Shown here: piece after piece, positions 22,271 through 39,072 of the stretch | How positions within the stretch are numbered: position 1 is the first letter of the stretch | Layout: the number at the start of each line of letters is the position of its first letter | Source: Phaeocystidibacter marisrubri | GTDB lineage: Bacteria; Bacteroidota; Bacteroidia; Flavobacteriales; Schleiferiaceae | Length of the DNA stretch: 64,000 nt | Assembly: GCF_008933165.1 (NCBI RefSeq) | Contig: NZ_WBVQ01000001.1 | Location: forward strand, 558,001-622,000 | Direction: 5' to 3' | The notes under the pieces: model-generated | Database searches by the model: none | Told to the model about the DNA's origin: nothing | Seen by the model: only the letters and a program-made list of their open reading frames with translations | Made by a program: the position numbers and the translations under genes

Positions 22271-23005
22271 ATGAAAAGACTCGATAATAGGGTGGCTATC
22301 ATCACTGGTGGCGCCTCCGGTATAGGTAAAGCAGCCGTCGAAAAATTTGTAGCAGAAGGCGCTCGTGTTGCTATCTGGGATATGAATGAGGAGCATGGCA
22401 ATGCTCTCGTTGCAGCCATGGATGGTAAAGCATCTTTCTACAAAGTGAATACAGCAAATTCGGATGAGGTGAATGCTGCAGCCGAGAAGGTGATTGCCGA
22501 CTTTGGAAAGGTAGATATCTTGGTGAACAATGCTGGGATTACTCGGGATGCCACTCTTTTGAAAATGACCGACGAGCAATGGGATGCCGTGATCAACGTA
22601 AACTTGAAAGGGGTGTTCAACTGCACTCGTGCATTGGCCGGACATTTTAAGGACAACGGCTACGGGAGAATTGTGAATACTTCATCTGTGGTTGGACTTT
22701 ATGGAAACTTCGGACAATCCAATTACGTGGCAACGAAAGCCGGGGTGATTGGAATGACCAAAACATGGGCGAAGGAGTTTGGCAAATATGGAATTACGTC
22801 CAATGCAGTAGCACCGGGTTTCATTGCTACAGATATGGTGAAATCCATGCCAGAGAAAGTGTTAGATATGATGAAGGACAAGGCACCGCTCAAGCGTCTA
22901 GGACAGCCAGAAGATATCGCAAATGCATACGCTTTCTTAGCTTCCGATGAAGCTTCTTTCATCTCAGGAACCGTGTTGAGTGTTGATGGCGCAGTAACTA
23001 TTTAA
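22271..23005 (+). CDS. SDR-family oxidoreductase (FabG/PhaB-like)
   Basis: A 244-residue classical short-chain dehydrogenase. Seen: Rossmann motif TGGASGIG at residues 12-19, NNAG at 86-89, catalytic Ser139, Tyr152 and Lys156 (YVATK), and a C-terminus SGTVLSVDGAV typical of 3-oxoacyl-ACP or acetoacetyl-CoA reductases. NADP(H)-dependent reduction of a 3-oxoacyl thioester is the likely reaction; the substrate is not shown. The ATG at 22271 is preferred over an in-frame ATG three codons upstream. It is the first gene of a tight same-strand set with gaps of 9, 18 and 14 bases and one 8-base overlap. Confidence 0.85.
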   Translation: MKRLDNRVAIITGGASGIGKAAVEKFVAEGARVAIWDMNEEHGNALVAAMDGKASFYKVNTANSDEVNAAAEKVIADFGKVDILVNNAGITRDATLLKMTDEQWDAVINVNLKGVFNCTRALAGHFKDNGYGRIVNTSSVVGLYGNFGQSNYVATKAGVIGMTKTWAKEFGKYGITSNAVAPGFIATDMVKSMPEKVLDMMKDKAPLKRLGQPEDIANAYAFLASDEASFISGTVLSVDGAVTI

Positions 23006-23014
23006 CCTTCCTCT

Positions 23015-24004
23015 ATGAGAAATGCTAGAATAACAGGAACAGGTTCAGCATCCCCAGATCGTGTGGTTCCCAATGCTTATTTCAACGAATTATTAGGGGA
23101 AGATGTAGATACTTGGTTACGTGAGAATGTTCAGATTTTCGAAAGGAGATGGCTCGCGGAAGATGAGTCGGTGGCTGATTTGTGCGAAAAGGCCGCATGT
23201 ATGGCCATAGAGCGTGCAGGCATTTCAGCAGAAGATCTCGACTTGATAATCATTGCTACCGATACTCCTGAATATATTTCTCCTTCAACCGCATCTGTTC
23301 TACAAGATAGATTGGGAGCAAAGAATGCGGGAAGTTTCGATGTGAATACAGCTTGTGCAGGATTTGTTTCTGCCATGGATACTGCTTTTAAGTACATCCA
23401 GGCGGATGGTCAGTATCAGCATATTTTGGTGATTGGCGCCTATGCCATGAGCAAGTACTTAAACCTTCACGACAAGAAGACGGTGACGCTTTTTGCCGAT
23501 GGGGCTGGTGCAGTCGTCTTGTCGGCTACTGAAGAAGAGAATGTGGGACAATTGGCATCTCTTCAAATGACCCAAGGTCAGTATAATGAATGGATGGGGA
23601 TCTATGCAGGAGGTTCGAATACGCCAATTACTGCGGATGTGGTGGAGCGGGGTGAACACAAGCTGCAATTCGTAAAGAAATTCCCGAAAGAGCTCAATCC
23701 AACCATGTGGTCGAGTATGGCCAAAGAGATGGCCAAGAAGGCAGGAAAAGAAGTGAAGGATGTAAAGATGTTCTTCATGACTCAAATCAACATCAACAGT
23801 ATTTATGAGATGTTAGACATTCTGGGGTTGCCACATGATCGCGCTATTTACATCATGCACAAGAATGGATACACTGGCTCGGCGGCGATTCCAATGGCAC
23901 TCAACCAAGCAGTAGAAGCTGGAGAAATTGAAAGAGGTGATTTGATCACCTTGATCGGTTCGGGCGGCGGACTAGCCTTTGCTGGTAGCCTCGTTCAGTA
24001 TTAA
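23015..24004 (+). CDS. Ketoacyl-ACP synthase III-like protein with altered catalytic triad
   Basis: A 329-residue thiolase-fold protein related to FabH. Seen: DVNTACAGF with the nucleophile Cys114, FADGAGAVVLS, and the C-terminal GSGGGLAFAGSLV. Aligning by eye to E. coli FabH, the catalytic His of the PHQAN motif is Thr256 (MTQIN), and the catalytic Asn of HGNTSAAS is Tyr286 (NGYTGSAA). The usual TGI-xxRR start of the substrate loop is also changed (VQIFERR). Cys is kept, so thioester formation may persist, but decarboxylative condensation as in FabH is unlikely. Context points to acyl transfer or hydrolysis in the cluster's pathway. Confidence 0.85.
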   Translation: MRNARITGTGSASPDRVVPNAYFNELLGEDVDTWLRENVQIFERRWLAEDESVADLCEKAACMAIERAGISAEDLDLIIIATDTPEYISPSTASVLQDRLGAKNAGSFDVNTACAGFVSAMDTAFKYIQADGQYQHILVIGAYAMSKYLNLHDKKTVTLFADGAGAVVLSATEEENVGQLASLQMTQGQYNEWMGIYAGGSNTPITADVVERGEHKLQFVKKFPKELNPTMWSSMAKEMAKKAGKEVKDVKMFFMTQININSIYEMLDILGLPHDRAIYIMHKNGYTGSAAIPMALNQAVEAGEIERGDLITLIGSGGGLAFAGSLVQY

Positions 24005-24022
24005 TGCTCAAAAAGAAAACGG

Positions 24023-25069
24023 ATGTTGCACACAAAGAAGATCAAAACGCCCTCCCTCACTCAGCATATCATTACCAACGATGTATCTTCAGATGAGGTG
24101 GTTCTATTCATTCACGGAAATGCAAGTAGCAGCGTTTTTTGGGAAGAACAAATGGAGATGCTTCCACCAAATTATCGTTCCATCGCGGTAGATTTAAGAG
24201 GGTATGGTGAAACAGAACCTGTCGTTCACGATGCCACTCAGGGATGCCTTCAATGGGCGACTGATATTCTTGAACTCATGGATGAACTGAAAGTGGAAAA
24301 GTGCCATGTTGTTGGTCATTCCATGGGAGGTTCAGCCGTATATAACCTCTTAACCATCGCTCCAGATCGCATTGTAAGTGCAACTCTGGTTGCTCCTGCA
24401 TCACCTTTTGGTTTTGGAGGAACAAAGGATGAAATCGGTACCCCGTGTTATTCAGATTTTGCGGGAAGTGGAGGAGGAACGGTGAATGCAGAATTCGCGC
24501 GTAGAATGAAAGAAGGTGACACTTCGGAAGAAGATCCAAATGCGAGTCCACGGGTAGTGATGAACAGTTTTTATTGGAAACCACCGTTCCGTCCGGCGCG
24601 TGAAGAAAAGCTTCTGCTTTCCATGATTTCAGAACGCGTAGGTGAGGATGCTTACCCTGGAGATTTTGTGGCATCAGAAAATTGGCCGAATGTGGCTCCT
24701 GGGATTTATGGTCCTGTGAATGCGAGCTCTCCTAAATACGCAATTCCTGCTGCTGAGAAATTGATGAAGTCGGGAATCCAGACTCCCATTTTATGGGTGA
24801 GAGGTAGCGATGATCAAATTGTATCAGACAACTCTTTCTTCGAGATGGGAACTTTGGGGAAATTGGGTTTGATTCCAGGTTATCCAGGTGAGGAAGTCTA
24901 TCCTTCACAACCCATGATTGCTCAAACTCGCTATGTACTTGAAAAGTTGAAAGAGGGAGGAGCTACTTACAAAGAGGTAGTTATTGAAGAAACAGGACAT
25001 ACCCCTTACATTGAAAAACCATCCGAGTTTGCTGCCGTATTTCATACACATCTGAAGGAAACCGCCTAA
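24023..25069 (+). CDS. Alpha/beta hydrolase
   Basis: A 348-residue cytoplasmic alpha/beta hydrolase. Seen: oxyanion motif LFIHGNASSS, nucleophile elbow GHSMGG with Ser100, acid Asp in RGSDDQIV (263 or 264) and His326 in ETGHTPYIEKP; a long cap of about 120 residues (roughly 130-250) lies between the core halves. There is no signal peptide, so it should act on an intracellular ester, thioester or lactone. The cap is larger than in common esterases, which suggests a bulky or specific substrate. It follows the KAS III-like gene by 18 bases. Confidence 0.85.
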   Translation: MLHTKKIKTPSLTQHIITNDVSSDEVVLFIHGNASSSVFWEEQMEMLPPNYRSIAVDLRGYGETEPVVHDATQGCLQWATDILELMDELKVEKCHVVGHSMGGSAVYNLLTIAPDRIVSATLVAPASPFGFGGTKDEIGTPCYSDFAGSGGGTVNAEFARRMKEGDTSEEDPNASPRVVMNSFYWKPPFRPAREEKLLLSMISERVGEDAYPGDFVASENWPNVAPGIYGPVNASSPKYAIPAAEKLMKSGIQTPILWVRGSDDQIVSDNSFFEMGTLGKLGLIPGYPGEEVYPSQPMIAQTRYVLEKLKEGGATYKEVVIEETGHTPYIEKPSEFAAVFHTHLKETA

Positions 25070-25083
25070 TTCCAGTTTGAATT

Positions 25084-26604
25084 ATGACAGAATCTGCGTC
25101 ATCATCGATGGTATGGGCAACGGCAGCCTTGCTTGTTCTCTATATGGGAGTCATTCTGTTTTTTGTGATCCGCGGAGCACTGCGGACCAAGAATATGGAT
25201 GACTATGCTTTAGGAAGTATTGCTTTCTCTCCCGTGGCCATAGGCTTGGCGTTGGCAGCGTCGATGACCAGTGCGGCAACGTTTATCATCAATCCAGGAA
25301 TCATTGCTTATTTCGGCATTCCTGGCGTTTTGTCGTACGCCCTTGTAATGCCTGTGGCCGCTCTCGCTTCCTTGGTAATTCTAACTAAGAGATTTCGCAA
25401 GCACGGAAGTACAGCCAAAGCCCTCACAATGGCGCAGTGGATGGGGTCGAAGTTTAAGCACGAGGGAATGGAACGCTTTTTTGCGTTTTTGTCGATGTTA
25501 TTAATCACTTTCATTGTGCTGATTTGCGTGGGACTCACGCAAGTGATTTCGAAGAGTTTGGATGCTGATCCTGTTTATGTCTTACTGGGCGTTGTGGTTT
25601 TCGTCTTTGGGTACATGATGTTTGGAGGTGCGAATTCTATGGTTTACACCAATACTATTCAAGCCCTTCTTATGTTGGTAGTAGCCTTTATCTTATTGGG
25701 TTCTGGCTATGAACACTTCAGCAATGGGGTTCATGGCTTCATCGATAAGTTGGGCGCGATCGATTCGAAGTTAATTCAAACCACAGATGCTTCTAGTCCG
25801 CTATTCCGCGACTATTTTGAGATTGTTTTTTGTCAGATTATCATCGGGATAGCGGTGATATTCCAGCCTCACATCATTACCAAATCGCTTCTCCTCAAGG
25901 ATGAGAGAGATGTCAATAAGTACTTGTTCACAGGCATAACGGTGGAGATTCTCTTCTTCCTCGTTGTGCTTGTTGGACTGTACGCAAGACTTGAATTTCC
26001 AGACCTAACCATGGGGGGGGCGCCTATCAAGGTGGATGAAGTGGTCTCTACATACGTGGTAAATGAGTTTCCCGTATATCTCGGACTTTTGGTTGTTTTG
26101 GGATTGATATCTGCCGGTATCTCTACGCTTGAAGGATTGATTCAATCTCTAAGCACAACCATTACAGCGGATATCATACTTCCGTTATCGGGTCGAAAGA
26201 AAGCCGAGAATATGGAGGAAATGAAGAAACAGGTCGTGTTGAATCGATGGGTGATCGTACTGCTAGCCGTTGTGGCTTTTGCTTTTTCCTATCAGCAAAT
26301 TGTGCACCCAAATTTGAGTGTTGCCATCTTCGCTCAAAACGGAGTTTATGCGTATTTCGCAGCAGCCTCTATTCCAGTTTGTATGGGTCTATTTTTCCCA
26401 TCGGTTAGTGGCAAGACTGTGTTTTTATCAGCGGTAGCAGCCGTTGTGGTTCACTTTGGCATTTACTATTTGAGATTGGGTAGTTATATGCAAATGGAAA
26501 CTCGAAATCCAGCTATTCCAGCAACCTTTGCAATTCTCTCAGCAGTGGTAATTGCCGTTGTTTTTCATCAACTTACAAAGTCTAAAAATACAAGTAATGT
26601 ATAG
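25084..26604 (+). CDS. Sodium:solute symporter (SSS family)
   Basis: A 506-residue inner-membrane transporter with about 13 hydrophobic segments. Seen: AASMTSAATFIINPGIIAYF in the early helices, GYMMFGGANSMVYTNTIQALLM near the middle, and GLISAGISTLEGLIQSLSTT, all typical of the SSS family. Similarity in these motifs to acetate, monocarboxylate and pantothenate branches suggests an organic acid as substrate, but the exact solute cannot be read from sequence. Its last 8 bases overlap the acyl-CoA synthetase gene, implying that import and CoA activation are made together. Confidence 0.88.
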   Translation: MTESASSSMVWATAALLVLYMGVILFFVIRGALRTKNMDDYALGSIAFSPVAIGLALAASMTSAATFIINPGIIAYFGIPGVLSYALVMPVAALASLVILTKRFRKHGSTAKALTMAQWMGSKFKHEGMERFFAFLSMLLITFIVLICVGLTQVISKSLDADPVYVLLGVVVFVFGYMMFGGANSMVYTNTIQALLMLVVAFILLGSGYEHFSNGVHGFIDKLGAIDSKLIQTTDASSPLFRDYFEIVFCQIIIGIAVIFQPHIITKSLLLKDERDVNKYLFTGITVEILFFLVVLVGLYARLEFPDLTMGGAPIKVDEVVSTYVVNEFPVYLGLLVVLGLISAGISTLEGLIQSLSTTITADIILPLSGRKKAENMEEMKKQVVLNRWVIVLLAVVAFAFSYQQIVHPNLSVAIFAQNGVYAYFAAASIPVCMGLFFPSVSGKTVFLSAVAAVVVHFGIYYLRLGSYMQMETRNPAIPATFAILSAVVIAVVFHQLTKSKNTSNV

Positions 26605-28075
26605 CACCGACTGGTTTTCGAAATGGAGTGTGTACAGTCCCGATAAGGTGGCGCTGAAAGACGCTTCAACCGGAGAAACCCGCACCTATGCAGAGTTGAA
26701 TAAAGAGGGCGAAGCACTCGCCTTGTACCTGCACAGAAATCACGGCTTGAAGAAAGGTGACCGCATTGCAGTGGTGTCGGATTTCGGTATGCCGTATTTT
26801 ATTCTTTTCGCCGCGGCGCAAAAGCTGGGCTTTGTACTGGTTCCTCTTAACCAGCGCTTGGCTCCAAGAGAAATTGAATACTTGCTCAACAATAGTGAAC
26901 CCATCCTTCTGGTATACGAAGACAAATATGCTAGCCTCGCCAACCATGCTAACCAAAGTCTCGGCATTCTTTCGTTGACCAATGAGGATATTCACCGTTT
27001 TTCGTTAACTCAAATTGATGGGGATTTGCCAGGTGGTCCGGATATGGACGATCCTATCTTCATCTTGTATACCTCTGGGACTACAGGATTTCCCAAAGGA
27101 GCTCTGTACACGCACAAAATGATGATGTGGAATAGTCTCAATACGGCCCTTCGACTTCACATCACGGCCTTTGATCATACGTTAATGGTGATGCCACCTT
27201 TTCACACTGGGGGCTGGAACGTGTTGACCACTCCTTTTTTGCACTTTGGCGCTTCAGTCACTCTATTACCCAAGTTTGAGGCAGATCGTGTATTGGAACT
27301 GTTGGAGCAAGAAGGAACTACGCTGTTTATGGCGGTGCCAACGATGGTTAAGATGTTGGCAGATAGTCCCGTTTTTAACCACGTAACGCTTGAAAAGCTC
27401 CGCTATTTTATTGTGGGGGGAGAAGCCCTGCCAATTCCCATGATTGAAAAATGGGCGTCGAAAAATGTGATGATTCGTCAAGGGTACGGCTTGACAGAAG
27501 TGGGAACAAACGTCACTTCGTTACCGGCAGAGGACGCTATTCGCAAGAGGGGCTCCATCGGATTTCCGAATTTCTACATTGAGAGCAAATTGGTGAAGGA
27601 GGATGGTAGTGAGGCAGGGCCGAATGAACTTGGAGAGTTTTGGTTGCGAGGCCCAGTGGTGACACCAGGGTATTGGAAGAATCCGGAGGCAACCAAGAAG
27701 AGCATTGTGGATGGGTGGTTTAAAACAGGCGACCTTCTTCGCAAAGATGAAGAAGGCTATTTGTATGTAGTAGATCGCATCAAGAACATGTTTATTTCAG
27801 GCGGTGAAAATGTTTATCCAGCGGAGATTGAAAAATATTTAGTGACGCATCCCAATGTGGTGGAAGTGGCTGTTGTAGGCGTTCCCGATGAGAAATGGGG
27901 TGAAGTAGGTAAAGCGGTTTTGGTGGTAAACGCCGAAATGACAGTAGAGGAAGTGAAGGCTTTTTGTGTGAAGGGATTGGCTAAGTTCAAGGTTCCTAAA
28001 CATTTTGTGTTCACCGACAAATTACCTCAAACGGATTCGGGGAAAATCGACAAGAAGGGGTTAGCGGAAGCATAA
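26597..28075 (+). CDS. AMP-dependent acyl-CoA synthetase (class I adenylate-forming)
   Basis: A 492-residue enzyme that should activate a carboxylic acid with ATP and CoA. Seen: P-loop ILYTSGTTGFPKGA, GYGLTEVGTN (A4/A5 region), KTGDLL, VDRIKNMFISGGENVYP (hinge and A8) and the catalytic lysine in QTDSGKIDKKGL (A10). Length fits medium- or long-chain acyl or aryl acid ligases. The ATG at 26597 lies inside the symporter's last codons; the open frame extends upstream but without the family's N-terminus. It closes the five-gene cluster. Confidence 0.88.
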   Translation: MYSTDWFSKWSVYSPDKVALKDASTGETRTYAELNKEGEALALYLHRNHGLKKGDRIAVVSDFGMPYFILFAAAQKLGFVLVPLNQRLAPREIEYLLNNSEPILLVYEDKYASLANHANQSLGILSLTNEDIHRFSLTQIDGDLPGGPDMDDPIFILYTSGTTGFPKGALYTHKMMMWNSLNTALRLHITAFDHTLMVMPPFHTGGWNVLTTPFLHFGASVTLLPKFEADRVLELLEQEGTTLFMAVPTMVKMLADSPVFNHVTLEKLRYFIVGGEALPIPMIEKWASKNVMIRQGYGLTEVGTNVTSLPAEDAIRKRGSIGFPNFYIESKLVKEDGSEAGPNELGEFWLRGPVVTPGYWKNPEATKKSIVDGWFKTGDLLRKDEEGYLYVVDRIKNMFISGGENVYPAEIEKYLVTHPNVVEVAVVGVPDEKWGEVGKAVLVVNAEMTVEEVKAFCVKGLAKFKVPKHFVFTDKLPQTDSGKIDKKGLAEA

Positions 28076-28132: not shown

Positions 28133-29569
28133 ATGAAGCAGAAGTTGGCCAAATTCACCGAGTTTGCAGAGAACCTCTTTCCGCACGAAGTTTACTACCT
28201 ATCGCGTATTGAGAATTTTCAAACCCCAGAGAACAAGGGGATTTTTGAAGTGATTCTCTACAATTTAGACCATCGCGCAGATCCACGGGCCTTTGATGAA
28301 TCCATAGACAAGCGCAAGTATTCCAACTTGAAGAAATGGATAGATGAGAAGCTGAATGAAGCAGACGTCGATCATCAACTTAGAGTGATTCAAGAGCTTG
28401 AGGCTAAAGTGCTGCTCGATCAAGTAGATAAACGCACAGAGAACGAAATTCAAAAGTGGCTACAGCGCGGTGTTCCTTCTCATTATTACTTCCGCAAGAT
28501 CTATGAATTAGCCCAGCATTATGAGCATTTCCTCTTGATTCGCCTCAGAGAAAATGCGGGAGCTAAAGTGGGTGCTTACCTCGATCAGTACAGAGCCAAC
28601 TTTGAATATGCCCAAGAGGTGTTCAATAAATTACAGCAGGCTACTTCGGATATCATCAGCGAATATCGAAACCGTTCGGAAACGCATTTGGGTTGGGAAG
28701 ATTTTCTAACGCGAGTGGTTTACAGTGAGAATATAGATGGAATGAATCAGTATTCTGCCTTTATTCGATTGTCCCTGCTTTACTCCAACCGCGGTGATTA
28801 CCACAAGCTAGAAGGGTTGTACAATTATATTGATGACCGTTTTGTGGAAGGTCGCTATTACTCCAAGCGGATTTTGGCAAATTATTACGCCAATCGTCTT
28901 TTGTATACCAGCCGATTCAATAGTCTCGATGAAGCGGAGCAGTTTGGCTATTTGAGCATCAAGTATAAGAATGCCGACTATCTCTTCTATTTGACGAATC
29001 TGGCAGCCGTACTCATTCGCCAAGGTAAGTCCGAACGTGCCTTGGGTTTGCTTCGAGAGGCTTTTCCCGAGATGCGACAAACCAACAGCTTGCACAACAA
29101 GGTTGGTTTTATCGCCTTTTACATCAAGTGTATGGTTGATATAGGAAGGGTGAAGGAAGCAGAGGCATTTGCCGATTCGTACTTAAAGGCATATCCTAAA
29201 CAAGTGATGAACGGAAGATGGCATTTGTTCTTTGTGGCCTACTTCCGATCTCTTATGATACAAGAGAAATACGGTCGTTTGCTATATCTCGATCACCATT
29301 TTAAGATTGAGAGTTTAGATAGAGCAAACCGAAGTAGTCATTCATATCTCCCCACAATAAGCTGGTATATCAGTATTGCTCGATTTGTTGAGCATGGAGG
29401 TGATCCGGATTCACTGATAGCAGATATGAAGTCGGCCTTGCGAGGTGTGGAGCTTTCTGGGAAGCGTGCAGAACGCGTAAAGCGCATCTATGATGAGCTG
29501 ATAGAAGTAGCTCCACAAGTGTTGAAAAAAGGAAAGTCAGCCATCTTTGATGAAGTTCTAGAGGTTTGA
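28133..29569 (+). CDS. Conserved helical protein of unknown function
   Basis: A 478-residue soluble, helix-rich protein with no signal peptide. Seen: many Tyr/Leu/Ala helix-turn-helix units resembling degenerate TPRs (SAFIRLSLLYSNRGDYHKLE, YFLTNLAAVLIRQGKSERALG, FYIKCMVDIGRVKEAEAFAD). I do not recognise a named family. A weak -7 box (TATCTTTA, 28121-28128) lies 5 bases before the ATG, so it is probably transcribed apart from the acyl-CoA synthetase 57 bases upstream. A scaffold role is plausible from the repeat architecture but not shown. Confidence 0.75.
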   Translation: MKQKLAKFTEFAENLFPHEVYYLSRIENFQTPENKGIFEVILYNLDHRADPRAFDESIDKRKYSNLKKWIDEKLNEADVDHQLRVIQELEAKVLLDQVDKRTENEIQKWLQRGVPSHYYFRKIYELAQHYEHFLLIRLRENAGAKVGAYLDQYRANFEYAQEVFNKLQQATSDIISEYRNRSETHLGWEDFLTRVVYSENIDGMNQYSAFIRLSLLYSNRGDYHKLEGLYNYIDDRFVEGRYYSKRILANYYANRLLYTSRFNSLDEAEQFGYLSIKYKNADYLFYLTNLAAVLIRQGKSERALGLLREAFPEMRQTNSLHNKVGFIAFYIKCMVDIGRVKEAEAFADSYLKAYPKQVMNGRWHLFFVAYFRSLMIQEKYGRLLYLDHHFKIESLDRANRSSHSYLPTISWYISIARFVEHGGDPDSLIADMKSALRGVELSGKRAERVKRIYDELIEVAPQVLKKGKSAIFDEVLEV

Positions 29570-29721: not shown

Positions 29722-30228
29722 ATGAAGAAATTAATCAACCTATCGCTCGCACTCGTAGGTTTTGCAGTGATCGCGACGTCCTGTAAGAAAGACGAAACGA
29801 ACGACGACAATAACAACAACACGGCGCAGGGTATACAAGGCGAATGGCAATCATCTGGTGACGATGTTGCCCCTCTTCTCGCAGCATTGTTCGGAACCGA
29901 TTCCATCTATGCGAATTTCGCTATGGATATGAGCTATACTGTAGAGCAGTATGATTCAACTGGTGCAAAATTGACACTTTCAGGTGTGTATACTCAAACC
30001 AAATCAGGAGTTGGTGATATCTGGACCATCACCGTGAACCAATCTTCTCCTGCGGCTTTGGATAGCGAAGGTATTTTTGAAGTCACCAATTCAACGATGT
30101 TGTACGAAATTGTTCAAACCAACCCAGATATAGGTGCTGTTCCTCCTACAGCTGCAGGCGGATTCGGTAGTACCAATGGAGGTGCTCTGGGAATGATGAA
30201 TGTTCAGACATATCAAAAGATTGAGTAA
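29722..30228 (+). CDS. Lipocalin-like lipoprotein of unknown function
   Basis: A 168-residue lipoprotein: SPII signal with lipobox ATSC (Cys21), then a low-complexity Asp/Asn linker (DETNDDNNNNT), then a beta-rich domain (IQGEWQSSGDDVAPLLAALF, SGVYTQTKSGVGDIWTITV, NSTMLYEIVQTN). The pattern of WxxS-type strands resembles small lipocalin-like Bacteroidetes lipoproteins. The N-terminal KKDE after the Cys may affect surface export, but this is not certain. A long hairpin follows the gene. Confidence 0.75.
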   Translation: MKKLINLSLALVGFAVIATSCKKDETNDDNNNNTAQGIQGEWQSSGDDVAPLLAALFGTDSIYANFAMDMSYTVEQYDSTGAKLTLSGVYTQTKSGVGDIWTITVNQSSPAALDSEGIFEVTNSTMLYEIVQTNPDIGAVPPTAAGGFGSTNGGALGMMNVQTYQKIE

Positions 30229-30333: not shown

Positions 30334-31899
30334 ATGAAGAAATTACTACTTGCCATTTGCTTGTCTACTGGTGTGGCTTTTGGCCAAGTTGAGCCAGCAG
30401 GTGGGACGAGTGTTTTTGACAAGGAACTTCCACAGGATAGCGAACGCGAATTTCAGTTTATCGCGTATTGGTATAGCCAGGCGGTTTCGTCAAACTACTA
30501 TCCCACTAACGACTTTCTCAAAGGTCAGGTGATTGGTCGATTGTTCGGTCAAAATACTACGCAAACTTCGGCGGAGAATACATCGCTATATGTGGAACAG
30601 CGTCTTCTTCCATTCTTTATCTATCAACCTAAATTATTCAACGGGAGGGCCGTTTTGCGCGCTTCTTTTGAAATCGATTTTACCTGGGGAGATGTGGCAT
30701 ATGGAACAGGGGGTAACTTTGGGGGAGCGGTTTCAGCAGATCAAGTAAACATTCAGACTCAAAACGTTGAATTGGAGTTTATTCCATTTAAGAATTGGAC
30801 CATTAATCTGGGGCTTCAACGCATGTTTGACAATCCGTACAACCCTTACCGTACCTTGTTTGATTACCAAACACAAACGGGCTATCGTTTAATGTATTGG
30901 GGGACCGATGCTTCTGGTATTACGGCTCGTTACCAAGGCGATTACAACCGTTGGAAGTTTGGAGCATGGAAGTTCTATGAAAATCAAGTTCAGGAGAATG
31001 ATGACGTGAGTATGTACGAGGTGATGTACGAACGTGACATTACCCAGAACTGGCGCTGGGGTGGAAGTGTGAATTACGTACGCGACCGTGCCAATGGTGA
31101 GGGAGGACCCTCCATTCTTGGTCAGGGTTTGAACTCTACCCTCAGTGAATACAACGGTACATTCCGCTTTCCTTTAGGAGGTAATCCCTATAGAGCTGAT
31201 ATCTTCTGGTTGGGGAGCTTTTGGAGTAGAAACGTGAATTACACCAGTGATCGCTTTATGACAACAGGTTTCGTTAAGTACAACCTTGGTTCGGTAGACA
31301 CTTTAGTCGCTAACGAAAATTACGCTCAACGCGCTTCCATTGGAGGTCTAGCAGTGAATTTGCACGGTGGGTATCGCTACGGTATAACGAAAGGGGATGT
31401 CTTGACGGTGGATTTCCTCTATACAGCTGGAGATGGGAATGGTATCAATGACAACCACTACAGCGGAGTGATGACAGGGAATAACTGGGGTTCTCCTGTA
31501 AGTGTTTGGATTAGCCATGGTGCCTATATCCTGTTCCCACATGGGAATGTTGTAAACCGTTTTGTAGCGGCTGTTAATGATGTATCCAACTTGGGGTACG
31601 GACTTACGGGAGGTACTGTTAATCTTTATCATGACATCATTCCGAACAAGTTAAACGCGAAGATTGGTGCGGCATCTGCCATTAGTAATGTTGCGCCGCC
31701 CAACGGTGGATTCTTAATGGGAGTTGAGGCCAATGGCAGGTTGAGCTGGGCTCCGAAGGTATACATGAACCTAGAACTCCATGCGGCATATATGTGGCTG
31801 GGTGACTTTTACGATAGCGGACGTGTGAATGGCGGAAATGCCGAACGTCCGGTTAATCCTTGGACCGTATTTCTCGGATATAAATGGCTAATGTTCTGA
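30334..31899 (+). CDS. Outer-membrane porin-like beta-barrel protein
   Basis: A 521-residue exported protein: signal peptide (LLLAICLSTGVAFGQ), then alternating amphipathic strands rich in Tyr, Trp and Gly (LEFIPFKNWTINLGLQRMFD, ITARYQGDYNRWKFGAWKFY, MNLELHAAYMWLGDF), ending with an aromatic C-terminus (FLGYKWLMF), the usual outer-membrane barrel signal. It resembles the large alginate-export-type porins, but no ligand can be read from sequence. The lipoprotein hydrolase gene starts 2 bases after its stop, so the two are probably one unit. Confidence 0.8.
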   Translation: MKKLLLAICLSTGVAFGQVEPAGGTSVFDKELPQDSEREFQFIAYWYSQAVSSNYYPTNDFLKGQVIGRLFGQNTTQTSAENTSLYVEQRLLPFFIYQPKLFNGRAVLRASFEIDFTWGDVAYGTGGNFGGAVSADQVNIQTQNVELEFIPFKNWTINLGLQRMFDNPYNPYRTLFDYQTQTGYRLMYWGTDASGITARYQGDYNRWKFGAWKFYENQVQENDDVSMYEVMYERDITQNWRWGGSVNYVRDRANGEGGPSILGQGLNSTLSEYNGTFRFPLGGNPYRADIFWLGSFWSRNVNYTSDRFMTTGFVKYNLGSVDTLVANENYAQRASIGGLAVNLHGGYRYGITKGDVLTVDFLYTAGDGNGINDNHYSGVMTGNNWGSPVSVWISHGAYILFPHGNVVNRFVAAVNDVSNLGYGLTGGTVNLYHDIIPNKLNAKIGAASAISNVAPPNGGFLMGVEANGRLSWAPKVYMNLELHAAYMWLGDFYDSGRVNGGNAERPVNPWTVFLGYKWLMF

Positions 31900-31901
31900 T
31901 C

Positions 31902-32861
31902 ATGAAAAGAGGTATAAAATATTTTCTCGCCATTGGAGTCACAGCGCTGATGGCGGCGTGTGCAACTCCGTACGCCGAGATTGAAGGCCTTGGTTCGATG
32001 GAGAACGACCTTCAATATCCATTTGAAGTGAAACGTCAAGCTCTCAGTTTTGGTGGAGAGGTAGCCTATGTAGATGAAGGTTCTGGTGATCAAACCATTA
32101 TTTTAATTCACGGGCTAGGTAGCTATTTGCCTGCATGGAAAAAGAACATTCCTGCATTGGCTGAGAACTACCGTGTGATAGCCCTCGATCTCCCAGGGTA
32201 TGGGAAGTCGTCCAAAGGAGCTTGGGAAGGAAGTTTAGAGTTCTTTTCTGAGTCGGTTATTGAATTAGCCGATAGTCTTGGTATTGATCAATTCGTTTTG
32301 GGCGGACATTCAATGGGGGGGCAAATTACCATCGTCACAGCATTGGAACACCCAGAACGAGTAACAAAATTGATTCTTGCTGCACCAGCGGGTTTCGAAA
32401 CTTTTCACGACGGAGAAAAGGAGTGGTTTCGATCCGTTGCAACCCGCAGCTTAACTCGTCTAGCAAAGCCTAAAACCATTCAGGAGAACGTAGAAATCAA
32501 CTTCTATAGCATGCCAGACGATGCAGAGTTTATGATCCGCGATAGAATTGCCATGCGTTCTGCAGCTGATTTTGAAGGCTATGCCTACATCATTTCAAAG
32601 TCCATCGTTGCCATGGTAGACCGACCAGTTTTTGATTACCTCAATCAGATCCATCAACCTACACTTGTCTTTTTTGGTGAAGGTGATCAATTGATTCCCA
32701 ATCGTTACTTAACTGGAGGTGAAACTCAAAAAATCGCCGAAAGCGGAAGTGCTCAAATTCCCAACTGCACCCTTCACATGGTTCCAAAGGCTGGGCACTT
32801 TGTACACTTTGAACAATCGGAGTTTTACAATGAGAAGGTGAAGGAGTTTATGGGGTTGTAG
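31902..32861 (+). CDS. Alpha/beta hydrolase lipoprotein
   Basis: A 319-residue lipoprotein esterase-like enzyme. Seen: SPII signal with lipobox MAAC (Cys20), oxyanion HGLGSYLPAW, nucleophile elbow GGHSMGG (Ser137), acid in FFGEGDQLIPN and His in KAGHFVHFE. The triad is complete, so it should be an active esterase or related hydrolase anchored in the envelope. The chosen ATG gives the signal peptide directly; an upstream ATG at 31884 would overlap the porin end. The last codons (GTG-AAG-GAG-TTT-ATG-GGG) resemble the 9-base repeat that follows the stop. Confidence 0.85.
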   Translation: MKRGIKYFLAIGVTALMAACATPYAEIEGLGSMENDLQYPFEVKRQALSFGGEVAYVDEGSGDQTIILIHGLGSYLPAWKKNIPALAENYRVIALDLPGYGKSSKGAWEGSLEFFSESVIELADSLGIDQFVLGGHSMGGQITIVTALEHPERVTKLILAAPAGFETFHDGEKEWFRSVATRSLTRLAKPKTIQENVEINFYSMPDDAEFMIRDRIAMRSAADFEGYAYIISKSIVAMVDRPVFDYLNQIHQPTLVFFGEGDQLIPNRYLTGGETQKIAESGSAQIPNCTLHMVPKAGHFVHFEQSEFYNEKVKEFMGL

Positions 32862-33173
32862 AGGTTTGATGGGTTTAAGGAGTTTAAGGGGTTTAAGGAG
32901 TTTTAGGAGTTGGATGGCGGATGTTTGGTGACGGGTGTTGGATGACGGGTGTTGGATGACGGATGACGGATGACAGGTGACAGGTGACAGGTGACAGGTG
33001 ACAGGTGTAGGATGACAACCTACAACTCTCTACTACCGCGAGAATCCTATCGCGTGGGTATCCAGGTGTAGGGATGCTTGGTGATGGGTGTTGGATGACA
33101 GGTGCTGGATGCTGGAAGATTGGAGCCTAGTGTTCTGCCCAATACCGCCCTCCATTTCCCCTATCTTTGCGTC
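32862..33173. repeat. Short tandem repeats: 9-mers and heptamer arrays
   Basis: After the stop at 32861 come about five 9-base units (GGAGTTTAA/GGGGTTTAA type, about 32870-32914), then fifteen in-phase heptamers of form TGNNNGR (32915-33019), including five exact copies of TGACAGG at 32971-33005. A CGCGA/TCGCG hairpin (33037-33054) follows, then six more heptamers (33075-33116). The rest, to 33173, holds the promoter of the following gene. No coding region is credible. Confidence 0.85.
33162..33169 (+). promoter_or_regulatory. Bacteroidetes -7 promoter element before the 43-residue gene
   Basis: TATCTTTG, an exact TAnnTTTG match, four bases before the ATG of the small gene at 33174. The very short gap implies an almost leaderless transcript for the small protein and the fused phosphodiesterase gene. 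Confidence 0.55.
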
Positions 33174-33305
33174 ATGCACAAAAAACCAAAACCGATTTCC
33201 TATACCGTGCCTAAGGAGGGATCTTTGGCCTTGTTGGCTCTTGGAGCGGTTGGAATCCGAGCATGGCGGGAAGCAAAGCAAAAGGCGGAAAAGGATGAAG
33301 AATAA
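33174..33305 (+). CDS. 43-residue protein overlapping the phosphodiesterase fusion gene
   Basis: A short basic and acidic-tailed protein: MHKKPKPISYTVPKEGSL, then ALLALGAVGIRAWR, a short hydrophobic stretch that could be a membrane-associated helix, then EAKQKAEKDEE. It has its own -7 promoter box and its last 11 bases overlap the ATG of the fusion gene at 33295. I recall similar very small genes before phosphodiesterase/TPR genes in other Bacteroidetes, but this cannot be verified here. The overlap suggests translational coupling. Function unknown. Confidence 0.65.
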   Translation: MHKKPKPISYTVPKEGSLALLALGAVGIRAWREAKQKAEKDEE

Positions 33306-35790
33306 ACTTCTAGTCATCGGTTGGGATGCAGCCGATTGGTCGGTTTTGAATCCTTTGTTACAATCGGGGAAGATGCCTGCTCTTGCACGCCTGATGAGCG
33401 GTGGTTTTCATGGGAAATTGGCTAGCTTACAGCCCATGTTGTCTCCCTTGCTATGGACGTCTATCGCAACGGGAGTGCGTCCTCATCAACATGGAGTATT
33501 GAACTTTGTAGAGGTAGATCCTCAGGGTGATTCGGTTCGCGCTGTTCGAGGAAGCTCGAGGAAGGTGAAGACGTACTGGGAGATTCTCTATGAAAGAGGA
33601 GTGAAGTCTAACGTGATTGGTTGGTGGCCTTCACATCCTGCGGGTAACTCAGGAGGAGTTCAGGTTTCAAATTTCTACAACAGATCAGGAGATGTGGAGC
33701 TGGATCCTCTTTTAGAGGGGACCGTGTTTCCTCCGAAGAAGTCAGATGAGTATGCATCACTTCGCGTTCATGCTACAGAAATGACGTCTCGCATTTTAGC
33801 TCCATTTTTCCCTCATGCTGACACTTTAGATGGCAGCGATGGTCTCTTGAGTTCTTGTGCCAAAATCATAGCGGATGCGTCGAGTATTCAAGCAGCTGTG
33901 ACAGAAGCGATGGCTACAACAGAGTGGGATGTGACTTCCGTTTATTGGGATGCATTAGATCACTTTAAGCACGTGGCCATGAAGTACCATCCTCCACGTG
34001 CAAAGGATGTTTCTGAGGAAGATTTTAAGAAGTATAGCGGTGTTGTTGAAGCGGGCTATCGCTTTCACGACATGATGCTAGATCGTCTACTTGATTTGGC
34101 TGGAGATGATTGCCATGTTCTCTTGTTGTCGGATCATGGATTTACAACAGGCGAAGAACGGTTGAGTAATACTCCTGATATTCCCGGTGGCCCTGCCGCA
34201 GAACATCACCCATTTGGGATTTTGGTAGGGAAGGGCCCAGAATGGAAAACGGGAGAAGTCTATGGTCATTCGTTGCTCGATATTTGTCCGGCAATTTTAC
34301 ATTTGTTCCGAGCCCCACTGGCCGAGAATTTTGAAGGTCGATTGCCGAGAGAATGGTGGAAACACCCGTATTCTTCAAAGAGTGTTGCTTCTTATCCTAT
34401 AGAATCTGAAGCGTTAGCAGGCAGCTCACAAGATGAAAGGCGACTCCTTTCGGATTTGCAAGCTTTGGGTTATATATCACTTCCAGATGACGATGCACTC
34501 GCCAAGCGCGCAGTTGAAGGTGATTCGCGATACAATAAAGTCACTTCGCTTTTGGATGGGCGCCTGCTTCAATCCGCAGAGAACGAATCAGAGCGGTTGT
34601 TCATGGATTTTCCGAATGAATCGCGATTTGCATATCAGTATTTGGGCATCTTACTTATGACGAATGACGTGCGTTTCTCGAGTGAGTTGACTCGAATTTC
34701 AGCGCGTTTCCCTTCGATATCCGCACAGTACTTTCACGGTATGGAAGCGCTTCGAAGTGGGTTTCCAGGAAAAGCGGTGCAGTATTTTAACGAGGTTCTA
34801 GTCAATGTTGGAAGTCAGCCGAATATTGAGGTTTCCATCGCCAAAGCATTACACTCCTCCGGAGCAACAAACGAGGCAATTGAGATATTGAAAAAGGCAA
34901 GTGAAGCACACTCCAGACTACCATTCGCGCCCTTGGCTTTGGCGGTGATTTACGACCAAATCGGTGATTCTTCCAAAGTGATCATTTATGCAATTACTGC
35001 CATAGAGCGCACATTCTACCTTCCAGAAGCTCATGCACTTGTTGCAAAAAACTCTTTGAATTTAGGGGATGTGGAATCTGCCGAGGCCGCCTATCGTCTC
35101 CTCTTGCATATGCGACCTAGTGATGAGGTGAGTAGAAAGGCCTTGCAACAGATTTTAAAGGATTCAGGTAGAAGTGAAGAAGCGAATTCTTTGCATAGAG
35201 AAGAACAGTCGCCTCAAATAATCGTAACCGGCTGGCCGCGTTCAGGTTCTTCAATGATGATGCTCATGTTGGAAGCAACGGGATTGGAATTGTTTCGTGA
35301 CACCCATCGTGAGGCCGACGATTCGAATCCATATGGTTATTTTGAACATGAAGCGATTACCCGAACACACGTGGATGCTTCATGGTTAGATCTTGCCAAG
35401 GGCAAAGTGGCTAAAGTGTTGCACCCTCAGTTTCGTCAACTTCCGGGCGACCGAAGCTATCTTGTAATCTGGATGGATCGTCCTCTTACAGAAGTGGTGT
35501 TAAGCCAGGAAGTGATGCTTGGCAAAGAGAAGGAAACCGTCATGAATCACTTTCCATTTGGAAAAGCCATGCAGATGCAAGTTGAGATGGACGCCACTTT
35601 GAGTTGGGCGGAATCTGCTGGAAATATGCAGATGTTAAGGGTTAGCCACAATCATTGTCTACTGCACACGAAGGAAGTGGTTCAAAGCGTTGTTGACTTT
35701 TTAGAAAAGGGAGGAGTACATCGTACATGGAATTTCGAGGCCATGGAAAACGCAGTCGATTCCGCCTTGTACCGGTCTCGATTGACTTAG
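33295..35790 (+). CDS. Phosphodiesterase/alkaline phosphatase-TPR-sulfotransferase-like fusion protein
   Basis: An 831-residue cytoplasmic protein with three parts. Residues about 1-370: type I phosphodiesterase/alkaline-phosphatase superfamily with GWDAADWS (metal Asp11), PLLWTSIATG (nucleophile Thr55), SVYWDALDHFKHV and LLSDHGF. Residues about 400-630: helical TPR-like repeats (LHSSGATNEAIEILKKASEA, AEAAYRLLLHMRP). Residues about 640-831: a P-loop fold starting VTGWPRSGSSMM, as in PAPS-dependent sulfotransferases. Substrates are unknown; the domains together suggest modification of a phospho- or sulfo-sugar or nucleotide. The ATG at 33295 is chosen because the open frame above it reads through repeats without family similarity. 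Confidence 0.85.
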   Translation: MKNKLLVIGWDAADWSVLNPLLQSGKMPALARLMSGGFHGKLASLQPMLSPLLWTSIATGVRPHQHGVLNFVEVDPQGDSVRAVRGSSRKVKTYWEILYERGVKSNVIGWWPSHPAGNSGGVQVSNFYNRSGDVELDPLLEGTVFPPKKSDEYASLRVHATEMTSRILAPFFPHADTLDGSDGLLSSCAKIIADASSIQAAVTEAMATTEWDVTSVYWDALDHFKHVAMKYHPPRAKDVSEEDFKKYSGVVEAGYRFHDMMLDRLLDLAGDDCHVLLLSDHGFTTGEERLSNTPDIPGGPAAEHHPFGILVGKGPEWKTGEVYGHSLLDICPAILHLFRAPLAENFEGRLPREWWKHPYSSKSVASYPIESEALAGSSQDERRLLSDLQALGYISLPDDDALAKRAVEGDSRYNKVTSLLDGRLLQSAENESERLFMDFPNESRFAYQYLGILLMTNDVRFSSELTRISARFPSISAQYFHGMEALRSGFPGKAVQYFNEVLVNVGSQPNIEVSIAKALHSSGATNEAIEILKKASEAHSRLPFAPLALAVIYDQIGDSSKVIIYAITAIERTFYLPEAHALVAKNSLNLGDVESAEAAYRLLLHMRPSDEVSRKALQQILKDSGRSEEANSLHREEQSPQIIVTGWPRSGSSMMMLMLEATGLELFRDTHREADDSNPYGYFEHEAITRTHVDASWLDLAKGKVAKVLHPQFRQLPGDRSYLVIWMDRPLTEVVLSQEVMLGKEKETVMNHFPFGKAMQMQVEMDATLSWAESAGNMQMLRVSHNHCLLHTKEVVQSVVDFLEKGGVHRTWNFEAMENAVDSALYRSRLT

Positions 35791-35843
35791 TTTCTCCCGC
35801 GGATTATCGAATATTTGCCTCGCATTTAGCATCTTTGCGCACG

Positions 35844-36680
35844 ATGAAAGACCAGAAGAAGAGTAAGCTTACCCAGTATACCGCAATGGCGGGTGCTGTA
35901 TTAGGAACCAGTGCTGTACAAGCACAGATCAATTATGTCAATATCAATGATACTACCGTAGATACCAATGGCGGGTATTACGATATCGACTTAGACAGTG
36001 ACAGTTCACCGGATTTCCGAATTACTCAATACCTCGATACCGGAGCCACCGGTATGTTGGATGGAATTCTCATCACTCCGTTTGATAGTTTGTACAGTAG
36101 AGTTGCTGGAGAACTTGAGAACGGATTCAACTATCCGTTTAAATTACTTCCGGGCGACAGTATTCAGTTGGATACCAAGTGGTCGGGGAATACCCAGACA
36201 TCACCGGGTTATTTGGTCTTTCAGTTCGATGGAACACCTTATCCAAACTCCTATTGGAAAGGTCCCGTTTCCAACGGTTATCTGGGACTTCGCATCATGA
36301 AAGATGATGGCTTCCACTTTGGATGGGCTCGTATAGACGTTGCTGCTGATAATCGCAGTTTTACGGTGAAGGATTTTGCATACGAAGAAACTTTGGAAGG
36401 TTCTATTCTAGCTGGTGCACCTCATCTTTCGGTCATTGAGCGCATGTTAGAGCAATTGGTGATTGGTCAAGGTGAAGGAGTCTTGTATCTCACAAAACCA
36501 TCCGAGTACAAGGTGGTAGATGTTCGAGTTTACAACGTGTCTGGAACAGAAATCACTCGAATGGCGTGGGAAGGTGAGCAGGCTCAAATAGATCTTTCCA
36601 ATGCGCCTTCAGGAGTTTATTTAGTGGAGTTCACATACAACGGAGTACGCAACACCCGTAAAGTAGTTCACGCTCAGTAG
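35844..36680 (+). CDS. Secreted protein with T9SS type A sorting domain
   Basis: A 278-residue exported protein: an N-terminal export segment (YTAMAGAVLGTSAVQAQ) with a charged head, a beta-rich domain (YYDIDLDSDSSPDFRIT, YLGLRIMKDDGFHFGWARID), and a C-terminal sorting region (EYKVVDVRVYNVSGTEITRM, APSGVYLVEFTYNGVRNTRK). The middle has no enzyme motif; it resembles the small secreted proteins common in this phylum. A near-match -7 box CATCTTTG (35830-35837) lies 6 bases before the ATG. Expected to be secreted by the type IX system and surface-attached or released. Confidence 0.8.
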   Translation: MKDQKKSKLTQYTAMAGAVLGTSAVQAQINYVNINDTTVDTNGGYYDIDLDSDSSPDFRITQYLDTGATGMLDGILITPFDSLYSRVAGELENGFNYPFKLLPGDSIQLDTKWSGNTQTSPGYLVFQFDGTPYPNSYWKGPVSNGYLGLRIMKDDGFHFGWARIDVAADNRSFTVKDFAYEETLEGSILAGAPHLSVIERMLEQLVIGQGEGVLYLTKPSEYKVVDVRVYNVSGTEITRMAWEGEQAQIDLSNAPSGVYLVEFTYNGVRNTRKVVHAQ

Positions 36681-36732: not shown

Positions 36733-36763
36733 TTGTTCAAGGCTTGTCTTTTCGCTATCTTCG
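36733..36763 (+). promoter_or_regulatory. Promoter of the aconitase gene (-33 TTG and -7 TATCTTCG)
   Basis: TTG at 36733-36735 and TATCTTCG at 36756-36763 are 20 bases apart, the expected Bacteroidetes layout with one mismatch in the -7 box. The start codon is 38 bases downstream at 36802. Confidence 0.5.
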
Positions 36764-36801
36764 CGAACCTCACGAGGAACTCTAACGTAAAGACATCAAA
36801 C

Positions 36802-39072
36802 ATGGTATTTGATCTAGACATGATCCGCGCTTATTATGCAGGTATGCCTGCAAAGATTGAAGCAGCGCGCAAAGTCCTTGGTCGCCCTATGACCCTGGCT
36901 GAAAAGATATTGTATACCCACTTATGGAGCGGAGAAGCTACAGAAGCCTTTGAGAGAGGTAACTCTTATGTAGAGTTTGCTCCAGACCGTGTTGCCATGC
37001 AGGATGCGACCGCCCAGATGGCATTGTTGCAGTTCATGCAGGCGGGTAAAACGAAAGTAGCAGTTCCTTCTACAGCTCACGCTGATCACCTTATTCAAGC
37101 GAGATTAGGCGCAACTAAAGACTTACAAGAAGGTATCAACAAGAACAATGAAGTATTCAACTTCTTGAGTTCTGTTTGTGATAAATACGGAATTGGCTTC
37201 TGGAAGCCAGGTGCAGGTATCATTCACCAAGTAGTATTAGAGAACTATGCCTTCCCTGGAGGTATGATGATCGGTACCGATTCTCACACTGTGAATGCAG
37301 GCGGTTTGGGTATGGTTGCTGTTGGTGTAGGTGGTGCTGACGCCGTAGACGTAATGGCCGGAATGGCTTGGGAATTGAAGTTCCCTAAACTCATCGGTGT
37401 AAAATTGACCGGGAAGTTGAACGGTTGGACAGCGCCGAAGGATGTGATCCTAAAGGTGGCTGAAATCCTAACGGTTAAAGGCGGTACAGGTTGTATCGTT
37501 GAGTACTTCGGAGAAGGAGCTGAATCTATGTCATGTACCGGTAAGGGTACCATCTGTAACATGGGTGCTGAAATTGGTGCCACCACTTCAACCTTTGGTT
37601 ACGACGACTCCATGAGACGTTACTTGAACGCTACAGGTAGATCTGAAGTGGTTGAGTTGGCCGATCAAGTTGCTGAGCACCTTACAGGCGATAATGAGGT
37701 TTACTCTAACCCTGAAAAGTACTTCGATCAAGTCATCGAAATTGATCTCGATACTTTGATGCCACACTTGAACGGTCCGTTTACTCCAGATTTGGCTACA
37801 GAAGTAGGTTCAATGACAGAGAAAGCTGAGGCTAACGATTGGCCATTGGACGTAGAATGGGGATTGATTGGTTCTTGTACGAACTCTTCTTACGAGGATT
37901 TGTCCAGAGCTGCTTCTATCGCTAAGCAAGCCGTTGATAAAGGTTTGAAGACTAAAGCACAATTCGGTATCAACCCGGGTTCTGAGCAAGTGAGATACAC
38001 CGCAGAAAGAGATGGTCTTTTGAAGCATTTCGAAGATCTCGACGCTACTATCTTCACCAATGCATGTGGACCTTGTATCGGTCAGTGGGGTCGTTACAGT
38101 GATCCTAAAAATGCTCCTAAAAACTCCATCGTTCACTCTTTCAACAGAAACTTTGCGAAGAGAGCGGATGGTAACCCAAATACACATGCTTTCGTAGCCT
38201 CTCCTGAAATGGTGGCTGCCATTGCAATTTCAGGTAGATTGGACTTTAACCCAATTACCGATACCCTCGTTAACAAAGACGGGATAGAGGTTAAGCTTGA
38301 TCCACCACATGGTGAAGAGCTTCCTACAAAAGGTTTTGCGGTTGAAGACAACGGATACCAAGCTCCAGCAGAAGATGGTTCTAAGGTTGAAGTTATCGTG
38401 AACCCAGAATCTAGCCGCTTGCAATTGTTGACTCCTTTTGAACCTTGGGATGGCAAGAACATCACAGGTGCGAAGTTGTTGATTAAAGCAGAAGGTAAGT
38501 GTACAACTGACCACATCTCTATGGCAGGTCCATGGTTGAGATACAGAGGTCACCTTGACAATATTTCCAATAACTGTTTGATCGGTGCTGTTAACGCATT
38601 TGGCGGAGCAACCAACGAAGTTGTGAATCAATTGACAGGTGAGAAGTCAGAAGTTCCTGCAGCAGCAAGAGCTTACAAAGCTGCCGGTATTCCTACGATT
38701 GTTGTGGGTGATCACAACTACGGTGAAGGTTCTTCCAGAGAGCACGCTGCTATGGAGCCTCGTCACCTAGGTGTAAGAGCGGTAATCGTGAAATCGTTTG
38801 CTCGTATCCACGAAACCAACTTGAAAAAGCAAGGTATGTTGGGCTTGACGTTTGCGAACGAAGAGGATTACGACAAGGTAAGAGAAGACGATACCTTCAA
38901 CTTTGTAGATCTTGAATCGTTTGCTCCAGGTGTGCAGTTGACTCTTGAAATTGTTCACGCTGACGGTTCTAAAGACGATGTGAAGTTGAATCACACCTAC
39001 AATGAACAACAGATTGGTTGGTTCAAGGCAGGTTCAGCCCTTAACTTGATTAAGAAGCAGAACAACTCGTAA
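36802..39072 (+). CDS. Aconitate hydratase (mitochondrial-type)
   Basis: Isomerises citrate to isocitrate in the TCA cycle using a 4Fe-4S cluster. Seen: [15 protein letters not shown] and [12 protein letters not shown], which carry the cluster cysteines, [14 protein letters not shown], and a C-terminal swivel domain with [22 protein letters not shown]. At 756 residues it belongs to the mitochondrial-like subclass found in Bacteroidetes, not AcnA or AcnB. Frequent GGT, GTA and AAC codons suggest selection for high expression. The ATG at 36802 gives the family N-terminus [10 protein letters not shown]. An intrinsic terminator follows. Confidence 0.95.

Follow-up and report, generated by a model that had tools for sequence, protein, structure and literature searches.

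A stretch of 64,000 nucleotides from Phaeocystidibacter marisrubri (G000:C1:558001-622000, referred to here as the window; the host genome comprises 3.35 Mb in 22 contigs) contains a compact run of same-strand genes for a reductase, a KAS III-like enzyme, a hydrolase, a sodium symporter and an acyl-CoA ligase, and it raises the question of whether, and to what end, these genes act together. A preliminary description of the window had proposed that the five genes import an organic acid, activate it with CoA, and reduce, transfer or hydrolyse acyl groups. We find that the set is larger, with nine genes between positions 22271 and 32861, that its joint function is well supported, and that its composition, on balance, favours catabolism, in which an ester-linked organic acid would be imported and loaded with CoA.

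Extent of the gene set and its distribution over genomes

The joint function of the set is well supported because five of its genes share the same eight genomes even though they lie on different contigs in two of them. A sample of 88 genomes of the window's family was searched by profile with six proteins, namely the KAS III-like enzyme (KAS), the ligase (LIG), the symporter (SSS), a protein resembling tetratricopeptide-repeat proteins (TPR), an outer-membrane beta-barrel (OMP) and the first of two alpha/beta hydrolases (ABH), at cut-offs of 1e-60 for KAS and SSS, 1e-90 for LIG, 1e-20 for OMP, 1e-15 for TPR and 1e-30 for ABH. Each of KAS, LIG, SSS, TPR and OMP occurs in the identical 8 of 88 genomes (G000, G003, G006, G010, G015, G029, G062 and G066), all of which are among the 56 with completeness of 90% or more and contamination of 5% or less; for the other 32 genomes, absence is less certain. 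The presence in these carriers of the short-chain dehydrogenase/reductase (SDR), a lipoprotein (LP) and the second hydrolase (ABH2) was read from gene neighbourhoods, in which SDR adjoins KAS, and LP and ABH2 adjoin the barrel, in 8/8 cases. The first hydrolase, found in only one of the 88 genomes (G000 itself), is an accessory gene outside the conserved core. The expectation that the five families of the preliminary description would be found together is thus borne out for KAS, LIG and SSS, and for SDR at the side of KAS, and fails for the hydrolase, which is private to the window's genome.

That these genes form a chance neighbourhood of unrelated metabolic genes is very improbable. The five searched genes are indeed unclustered in two carriers, Schleiferia and Thermaurantimonas (G003 and G015), and the ligase has no other gene of the set within the 15-kb stretches read; in the order KAS, LIG, SSS, TPR, barrel, the contigs are numbers 2, 1, 5, 3 and 7 in G015 and 11, 2, 3, 30 and 13 in G003. 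These dispersed genes nevertheless keep the identical distribution and, since they occupy separate contigs, physical linkage cannot explain it. The chance of one such 8/88 coincidence is 1.6e-11 if genomes are independent, which related genomes are not, so that the figure serves as a guide only. Shared descent by itself also fits poorly, for the carriers are spread over 6 of the 19 genera, with only some genomes of a genus among them (1/3 genomes in the window's genus, 3/7 in g15 and 1/5 in g5).

The nine genes of the window are as follows.

22271..23005, + strand: SDR, 244 residues, FabG/PhaB type, probable NAD-linked 3-hydroxyacyl-CoA dehydrogenase (PF13561; NF004198; conserved residues)
23015..24004, + strand: KAS III-like enzyme (KAS), 329 residues, with Cys114, Thr256 and Tyr286 (PF08545/PF08541; FabH alignment; model)
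24023..25069, + strand: first alpha/beta hydrolase (ABH), 348 residues, Ser in GHSMGG, an optional part (PF00561)
25084..26604, + strand: sodium:solute symporter (SSS), 506 residues (PF00474)
26597..28075, + strand: class I (ANL) acyl-CoA ligase (LIG), 492 residues (PF00501/PF13193)
28133..29569, + strand: conserved 478-residue protein with weak TPR matches (TPR_14, E 1.9e-4, below cut-off)
29722..30228, + strand: lipoprotein (LP), 168 residues, probably surface-exposed (lipobox ATSC, then KKDET)
30334..31899, + strand: outer-membrane beta-barrel (OMP), 521 residues, AlgE-like (model nearest AlgE)
31902..32861, + strand, alternative start at 31884: second alpha/beta hydrolase (ABH2), 319 residues, a lipoprotein (PF00561; lipobox MAAC)

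The packing that had been reported for the first five genes, at most 18 bases apart with the last two overlapping, agrees with the gaps of 9, 18 and 14 bases and the final overlap of 8 bases, and a Pfam scan (adh_short_C2, ACP_syn_III, Abhydrolase, SSF, AMP-binding) supports all five of the family names given. The five-gene boundary was drawn too narrowly: the cluster is real, with four more genes reaching to 32861 and no gap in the window's nine genes wider than 152 bases, and the middle hydrolase lies outside its conserved core. The packing is not due to chance, because the same gene order is found again in other genomes; L011 and L012 both have the order SDR-KAS-SSS-LIG, followed by TPR, lipoprotein, barrel and ABH2, with the first hydrolase missing. 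Promoter and terminator scans were uninformative, with 15 and 14 sites where shuffled sequence averages 18.4 and 9.8. The genes downstream of the set encode, at 33088-35790, a type I phosphodiesterase that weakly matches TPR, at 35727-36680 a Por-secretion-tail protein, and at 36733-39072 an aconitase.

Exchange of parts and the proposed uptake route

Relatives of the set were also grouped into protein families over 82 loci (L012, L016 and L017 to L096), using open reading frames (ORFs) of at least 110 residues; the genomes of L011 and L013 to L015 enter the count as L020, L030, L022 and L032. The loci come from Bacteroidota, Chlorobi/Ignavibacteria, KSB1, Calditrichota and Marinimicrobia. One of them, L030, is taken from a record titled as a Chryseobacterium gleum metagenome-assembled genome; it appears to belong with G006 of the window's family, and the species label is probably wrong. 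The core families recur as KAS in 78 of the 82 loci, LIG in 68, SSS in 57, SDR in 56, ABH2 in 49, TPR in 34, lipoprotein in 22 and barrel in 21; further families are a TonB-dependent receptor in 37 loci, a MarR-like regulator in 12 (its Pfam score falling short of the cut-off), the first hydrolase in 5 and a thiolase in 4. The remaining recurring families occur in at most five loci each and leave the reading as it is: two match nothing, and the others are a cbb3-oxidase, a DsbD-like protein, a pyridoxal-phosphate enzyme, a Crp regulator, MacB and a type IX secretion protein.

In some loci parts of the set give way to unrelated proteins, as counted over 80 loci that are the best 80 of 491 relatives, with SSS called at 45% identity (44 loci, fewer than the 57 of the clustering). 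The barrel is present in 19/80 and the TonB receptor in 38/80, both together in one only (L083). SSS is present in 44/80 and a major facilitator superfamily (MFS) carrier in 5/80, never both; this carrier resembles sugar-acid and aromatic-acid carriers with scores below their cut-offs. The MFS gene at L063:11011-12287 consists of two overlapping frames, possibly through a frameshift or sequencing error. L016, from another family of the same order, and L097, on a Chloroflexota plasmid, each have an acetyl-CoA hydrolase/transferase-family gene, and no relative of LIG turned up in either neighbourhood; L097 also has a branched-chain-type ATP-binding cassette (ABC) importer downstream. Because the importers are interchangeable, and the ligase can give way to a CoA-transferase, the shared chemistry of these loci would be acid import and CoA loading. 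These exchanges support the import and CoA activation of an organic acid that had been proposed from the window; the joint pathway as first drawn stands in that respect, having missed the outer-membrane part and three other conserved genes and having included a hydrolase that is optional.

The route that we propose would begin with the surface lipoprotein and AlgE-like barrel (elsewhere a TonB receptor), which would pass an ester or oligomer through the outer membrane. ABH2 would hydrolyse the ester in the periplasm, the SSS symporter would take in the acid or a short oligomer, the ligase would form the acyl-CoA, the SDR would oxidise an (R)-3-hydroxyacyl-CoA using NAD, and ordinary thiolases encoded elsewhere in the genome would complete the breakdown.

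Acidic residues after the lipidated Cys resemble the Bacteroidota surface-export signal, and at least two Asp or Glu residues stand within the five positions after the Cys in 18 of the 20 sequences with a lipobox (22 examined, the window included); the lipoprotein is therefore probably surface-exposed, as judged by this signal. The lipoprotein alignment was made without L072 and L083. A search of PDB sequences with the lipoprotein profile gave just weak matches at profile positions 1-46, the signal-peptide end. A CSDGIQNQDETGVDCG-like motif occurs in an N-terminal stretch of the lipoproteins of L044, L046, L073 and L077-L079 (Saprospiraceae and related). The barrel model (predicted local distance difference test, pLDDT, 69.9) is nearest to AlgE (E 4e-17), then to OprD-type and other channels, an assignment of modest confidence; Alginate_exp PF13372 is seen in 4 of 20 barrel members (E up to 0.1, best 2.7e-6) and not in the window's own, and the barrel profile matched no PDB sequence. 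The 478-residue TPR-like protein, which matches no Pfam family above cut-off, accompanies the set in 34/82 loci and in the same 8/88 genomes. ABH2 retains Ser137, Asp262 and His299 in 51/51 relatives; its periplasmic placement is weak because a simple pattern recognises a lipobox in only 16/54, and the acidic export mark is found in 0/16 of these. The symporter scores well above the PF00474 cut-off (6.5e-32, 111.3 vs 22.8 bits).

The KAS III-like enzyme and its partners

Aligned with FabH, KAS has Cys114 at the position of the nucleophile, Thr256 in place of the His and Tyr286 in place of the Asn, so that neither the window KAS nor its 77 relatives have the Cys-His-Asn triad of the condensing enzyme. 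Since His and Asn are both replaced, decarboxylating condensation of the FabH type is unlikely, as far as active-site residues can tell. Cys114, Thr256, Gln257, Asn259, Tyr286, Thr287 and Gly288 are invariant in 77/77 relatives, and the Thr/Tyr site is therefore another conserved site and not the product of decay. (The conservation sets, after identity and length filters, comprised 77 KAS at 45%, 54 SDR at 50%, 66 LIG at 40% and 51 ABH2 at 38%; KAS counts of 76-78 where 80 or 82 might be expected reflect the choice among overlapping or cut ORFs.) A model of KAS built with the window sequence and 26 of the 77 relatives (pLDDT 90.7) has a full-length FabH/thiolase fold (Z 45.7, root-mean-square deviation 1.5 over 307 aligned residues), with Z of 45 to 2ebd and E. 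coli FabH at 30-33% identity. KAS thus resembles FabH in fold and active-site Cys and differs from it in Thr256/Tyr286, in a TIGR00747 score below cut-off and in belonging to a separate clade. In a tree of 36 proteins, to which 19 of the 77 relatives contributed and in which several long branches were flagged, the Thr/Tyr type, including the members from L016 and L097, stands apart from FabH and from the PRK06840 type with support of 96/86. Two normal-looking FabH paralogues with His and Asn are encoded elsewhere in the window's genome.

The "transfer" of acyl groups in the preliminary description would accordingly have to proceed by a different chemistry from that of FabH. CerJ and ChlB3 do transfer acyl groups through Cys on a KASIII fold without condensation, with Cys-His-Asp triads, while DpsC has Ser-His-His (PMC9573744); these enzymes sit in antibiotic clusters, whereas the window KAS has Cys-Thr-Tyr and lies beside transporters. 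A tentative proposal is that KAS works by acyl transfer through Cys114, for example in a CoA-dependent cleavage of the esters of an oligo-3-hydroxyacyl-CoA. Retro-Claisen cleavage of a 3-ketoacyl-CoA is a less favoured and rather doubtful mechanism.

The PRK06840 type, annotated as "3-oxoacyl-ACP synthase", offers a further comparison, for one member (473 bits vs a cut-off of 315) adjoins a window-type KAS in L016; the window KAS itself falls below that cut-off (NF005308, 149.1 vs 315 bits). In place of the window type's TQ and GYT, PRK06840-type proteins have TH or LH, with a His shifted one position on, and GH. Relatives of the L016 protein with 30-34% identity are found in the haloarchaeal plasmids L118, L119 and L120, and in 3/3 loci viewed (of 10 records matched) the gene directly follows a five-gene branched-chain-type ABC importer; L118 and L120 also have an AMP-binding gene close by, and L120 a hydrolase. 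Judged by its gene neighbours, the PRK06840 type looks like another KAS III-like family with a link to uptake. A very divergent KAS III-like protein on an Alkaliphilus plasmid (L106:3632-4639) has SQ at one of the replaced positions and GYT at the other, and lies beside plasmid genes. Two hits were set aside as evidence from context: H33 (Acetoanaerobium), an ordinary FabH inside a fatty-acid gene set, and H32 (Alkaliphilus), which is without metabolic neighbours.

SDR and KAS form the closest pair of the set: the SDR is the nearest labelled gene less than 400 bases upstream of KAS in 33/76 loci, at a median gap of 13. Its Trp36-Asp37 and YxxxK are kept in 54/54 relatives, with Asp37 at the end of beta-2; an Asp at this place in SDR enzymes usually signals the use of NAD, and the pattern suggests that the enzyme is NAD-linked. 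The ligase (PF00501, 254 bits) keeps its P-loop, and the Lys of its C-terminal GK motif is found in 67/67 rows, window included; its best solved relative is feruloyl-CoA synthetase, with fatty-acyl-CoA synthetases close behind.

Substrate, known systems and significance

The substrate acid is probably of the 3-hydroxy type, which fits because breakdown would then call for a ligase, an SDR and a thiolase without acyl-CoA dehydrogenase or enoyl hydratase, and neither of the latter two is among the 21 recurring families of the 82 loci. The absence of thiolase noted for the five-gene cluster is true of that locus, but thiolase genes lie near the set in 4/82 related loci (L016, L047, L076 and L082). 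The one scanned, from L076, scores 464.7 vs 240.55 with TIGR01930, acetyl-CoA C-acetyltransferase models being best, below their own cut-offs; the thiolase of L097 is of the Thiolase_C_1 type and has a ChsH2-type OB-fold partner. Since the cluster genomes have canonical thiolases (3 each in 7/7 searched, of 8), KAS need not be the thiolase.

(R)-3-hydroxybutyrate and its oligomers are the leading candidate substrate, which we put forward with reserve. The argument comes from L016, which encodes a true short-chain polyhydroxyalkanoate (PHA) depolymerase (i_nPHAscl, 338 vs the curated cut-off of 300) and so points to 3-hydroxybutyrate. A somewhat doubtful alternative keeps the same import and activation and supposes another substrate, be it an aromatic, branched or longer hydroxy acid, with KAS as a dedicated thiolase that acts on the 3-ketoacyl-CoA made by the SDR. 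The tight SDR-KAS pairing, the place of KAS within the thiolase superfamily, the feruloyl-CoA synthetase likeness of the ligase and the resemblance, below cut-offs, of the exchanged MFS carrier to sugar-acid and aromatic-acid carriers all agree with it. A dedicated thiolase would, however, be redundant beside the ordinary thiolases of four loci, that of L097 and the three per genome just mentioned, and most aromatic or fatty acids would need the enoyl hydratase or acyl-CoA dehydrogenase that the recurring families lack.

Several results weigh against a catabolic system for hydroxybutyrate esters. The SDR scores above the NCBIfam FabG equivalog NF004198 (298.8 vs cut-off 296) and KAS above the general KAS 3 cut-off NF006829 (255.7 vs 249), with TIGR00747 fabH not reached (224.7 vs 292.1), so that both carry biosynthetic names; AlgE, the barrel's closest match, is an exporter; and KAS lacks the Cys-His-Asp triad of CerJ and ChlB3. 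Only one locus, L016, links the set to a true PHA depolymerase. The intracellular depolymerase i_nPHAscl was found in 0/296 genomes of the phylum, a weak negative in which no control matched and only some candidates, 7 per genome among the rows listed, were scored, and polymer-type esterases of poly-3-hydroxybutyrate (PHB; TIGR01840) occur in 1/8 cluster genomes vs 23/80 others, all below cut-off and with no association. A plasmid search with the L016 depolymerase gave no match. The names and the AlgE likeness would suit biosynthesis with export, in which KAS and SDR would turn the acyl-CoA supplied by the ligase into a hydroxyacyl chain, to be exported by lipoprotein and barrel. We regard this as improbable, for the FabH His and Asn are replaced in 77/77 KAS proteins, the NAD-type Asp of the SDR is kept in 54/54, importers (TonB-dependent receptors, solute symporters) belong to the set, and the gaps within the window's set, at most 152 bases, leave no room for an acyl carrier protein gene, the other loci having been covered for ORFs of at least 110 residues.

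The catabolic system that we favour can be set beside two known ones. The PHB mobilisation set of bacilli comprises PhaZ, a 3-hydroxybutyrate dehydrogenase, a CoA-transferase and a thiolase; L016 is similar to it, with a thiolase, an SDR, a CoA-transferase-family gene and its true i_nPHAscl depolymerase, whereas the first hydrolase of the window scores far lower than that family requires (its best NCBIfam match, NF050089, at 86.7 bits vs 300). Neither a PHA synthase nor a granule protein is among the recurring families of the 82 loci. The Ser of GHSMGG in this first hydrolase is kept in 5/5 relatives, from the 5/82 loci that have the gene. The OleABCD olefin pathway unites a thiolase-fold enzyme, an alpha/beta hydrolase, an AMP ligase and an SDR; OleA has His and Asn beside its Cys, and OleB an Asp nucleophile. 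We rejected this pathway as an explanation: the same four superfamilies are present, but KAS is without the OleA His and Asn, the hydrolases are Ser enzymes (ABH 5/5, ABH2 51/51), the SDR is short and classical, and importers are attached.

No description of this gene set was found in the literature searched. A bolder and, in our estimation, unlikely extension is that the Cys-Thr-Tyr clade is a new enzyme class that cuts oligo-3-hydroxyacyl-CoA esters, the acyl group passing to Cys and then to CoA, by which a single ATP would activate a whole oligomer, and that the nine genes are, to our knowledge, the first described Bacteroidota uptake system for polyester oligomers. The clade offers a clean test of how a thiolase-fold enzyme works once the catalytic pair, His and Asn, is gone, and it cautions against calling such genes FabH. 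A set that annotation pipelines would call fatty-acid synthesis is apparently a nutrient-uptake system, widespread and equipped with an outer-membrane part of its own, and, if its substrate is a 3-hydroxyacid ester, marine and sludge Bacteroidota would gain a route to the fragments of storage polyesters.

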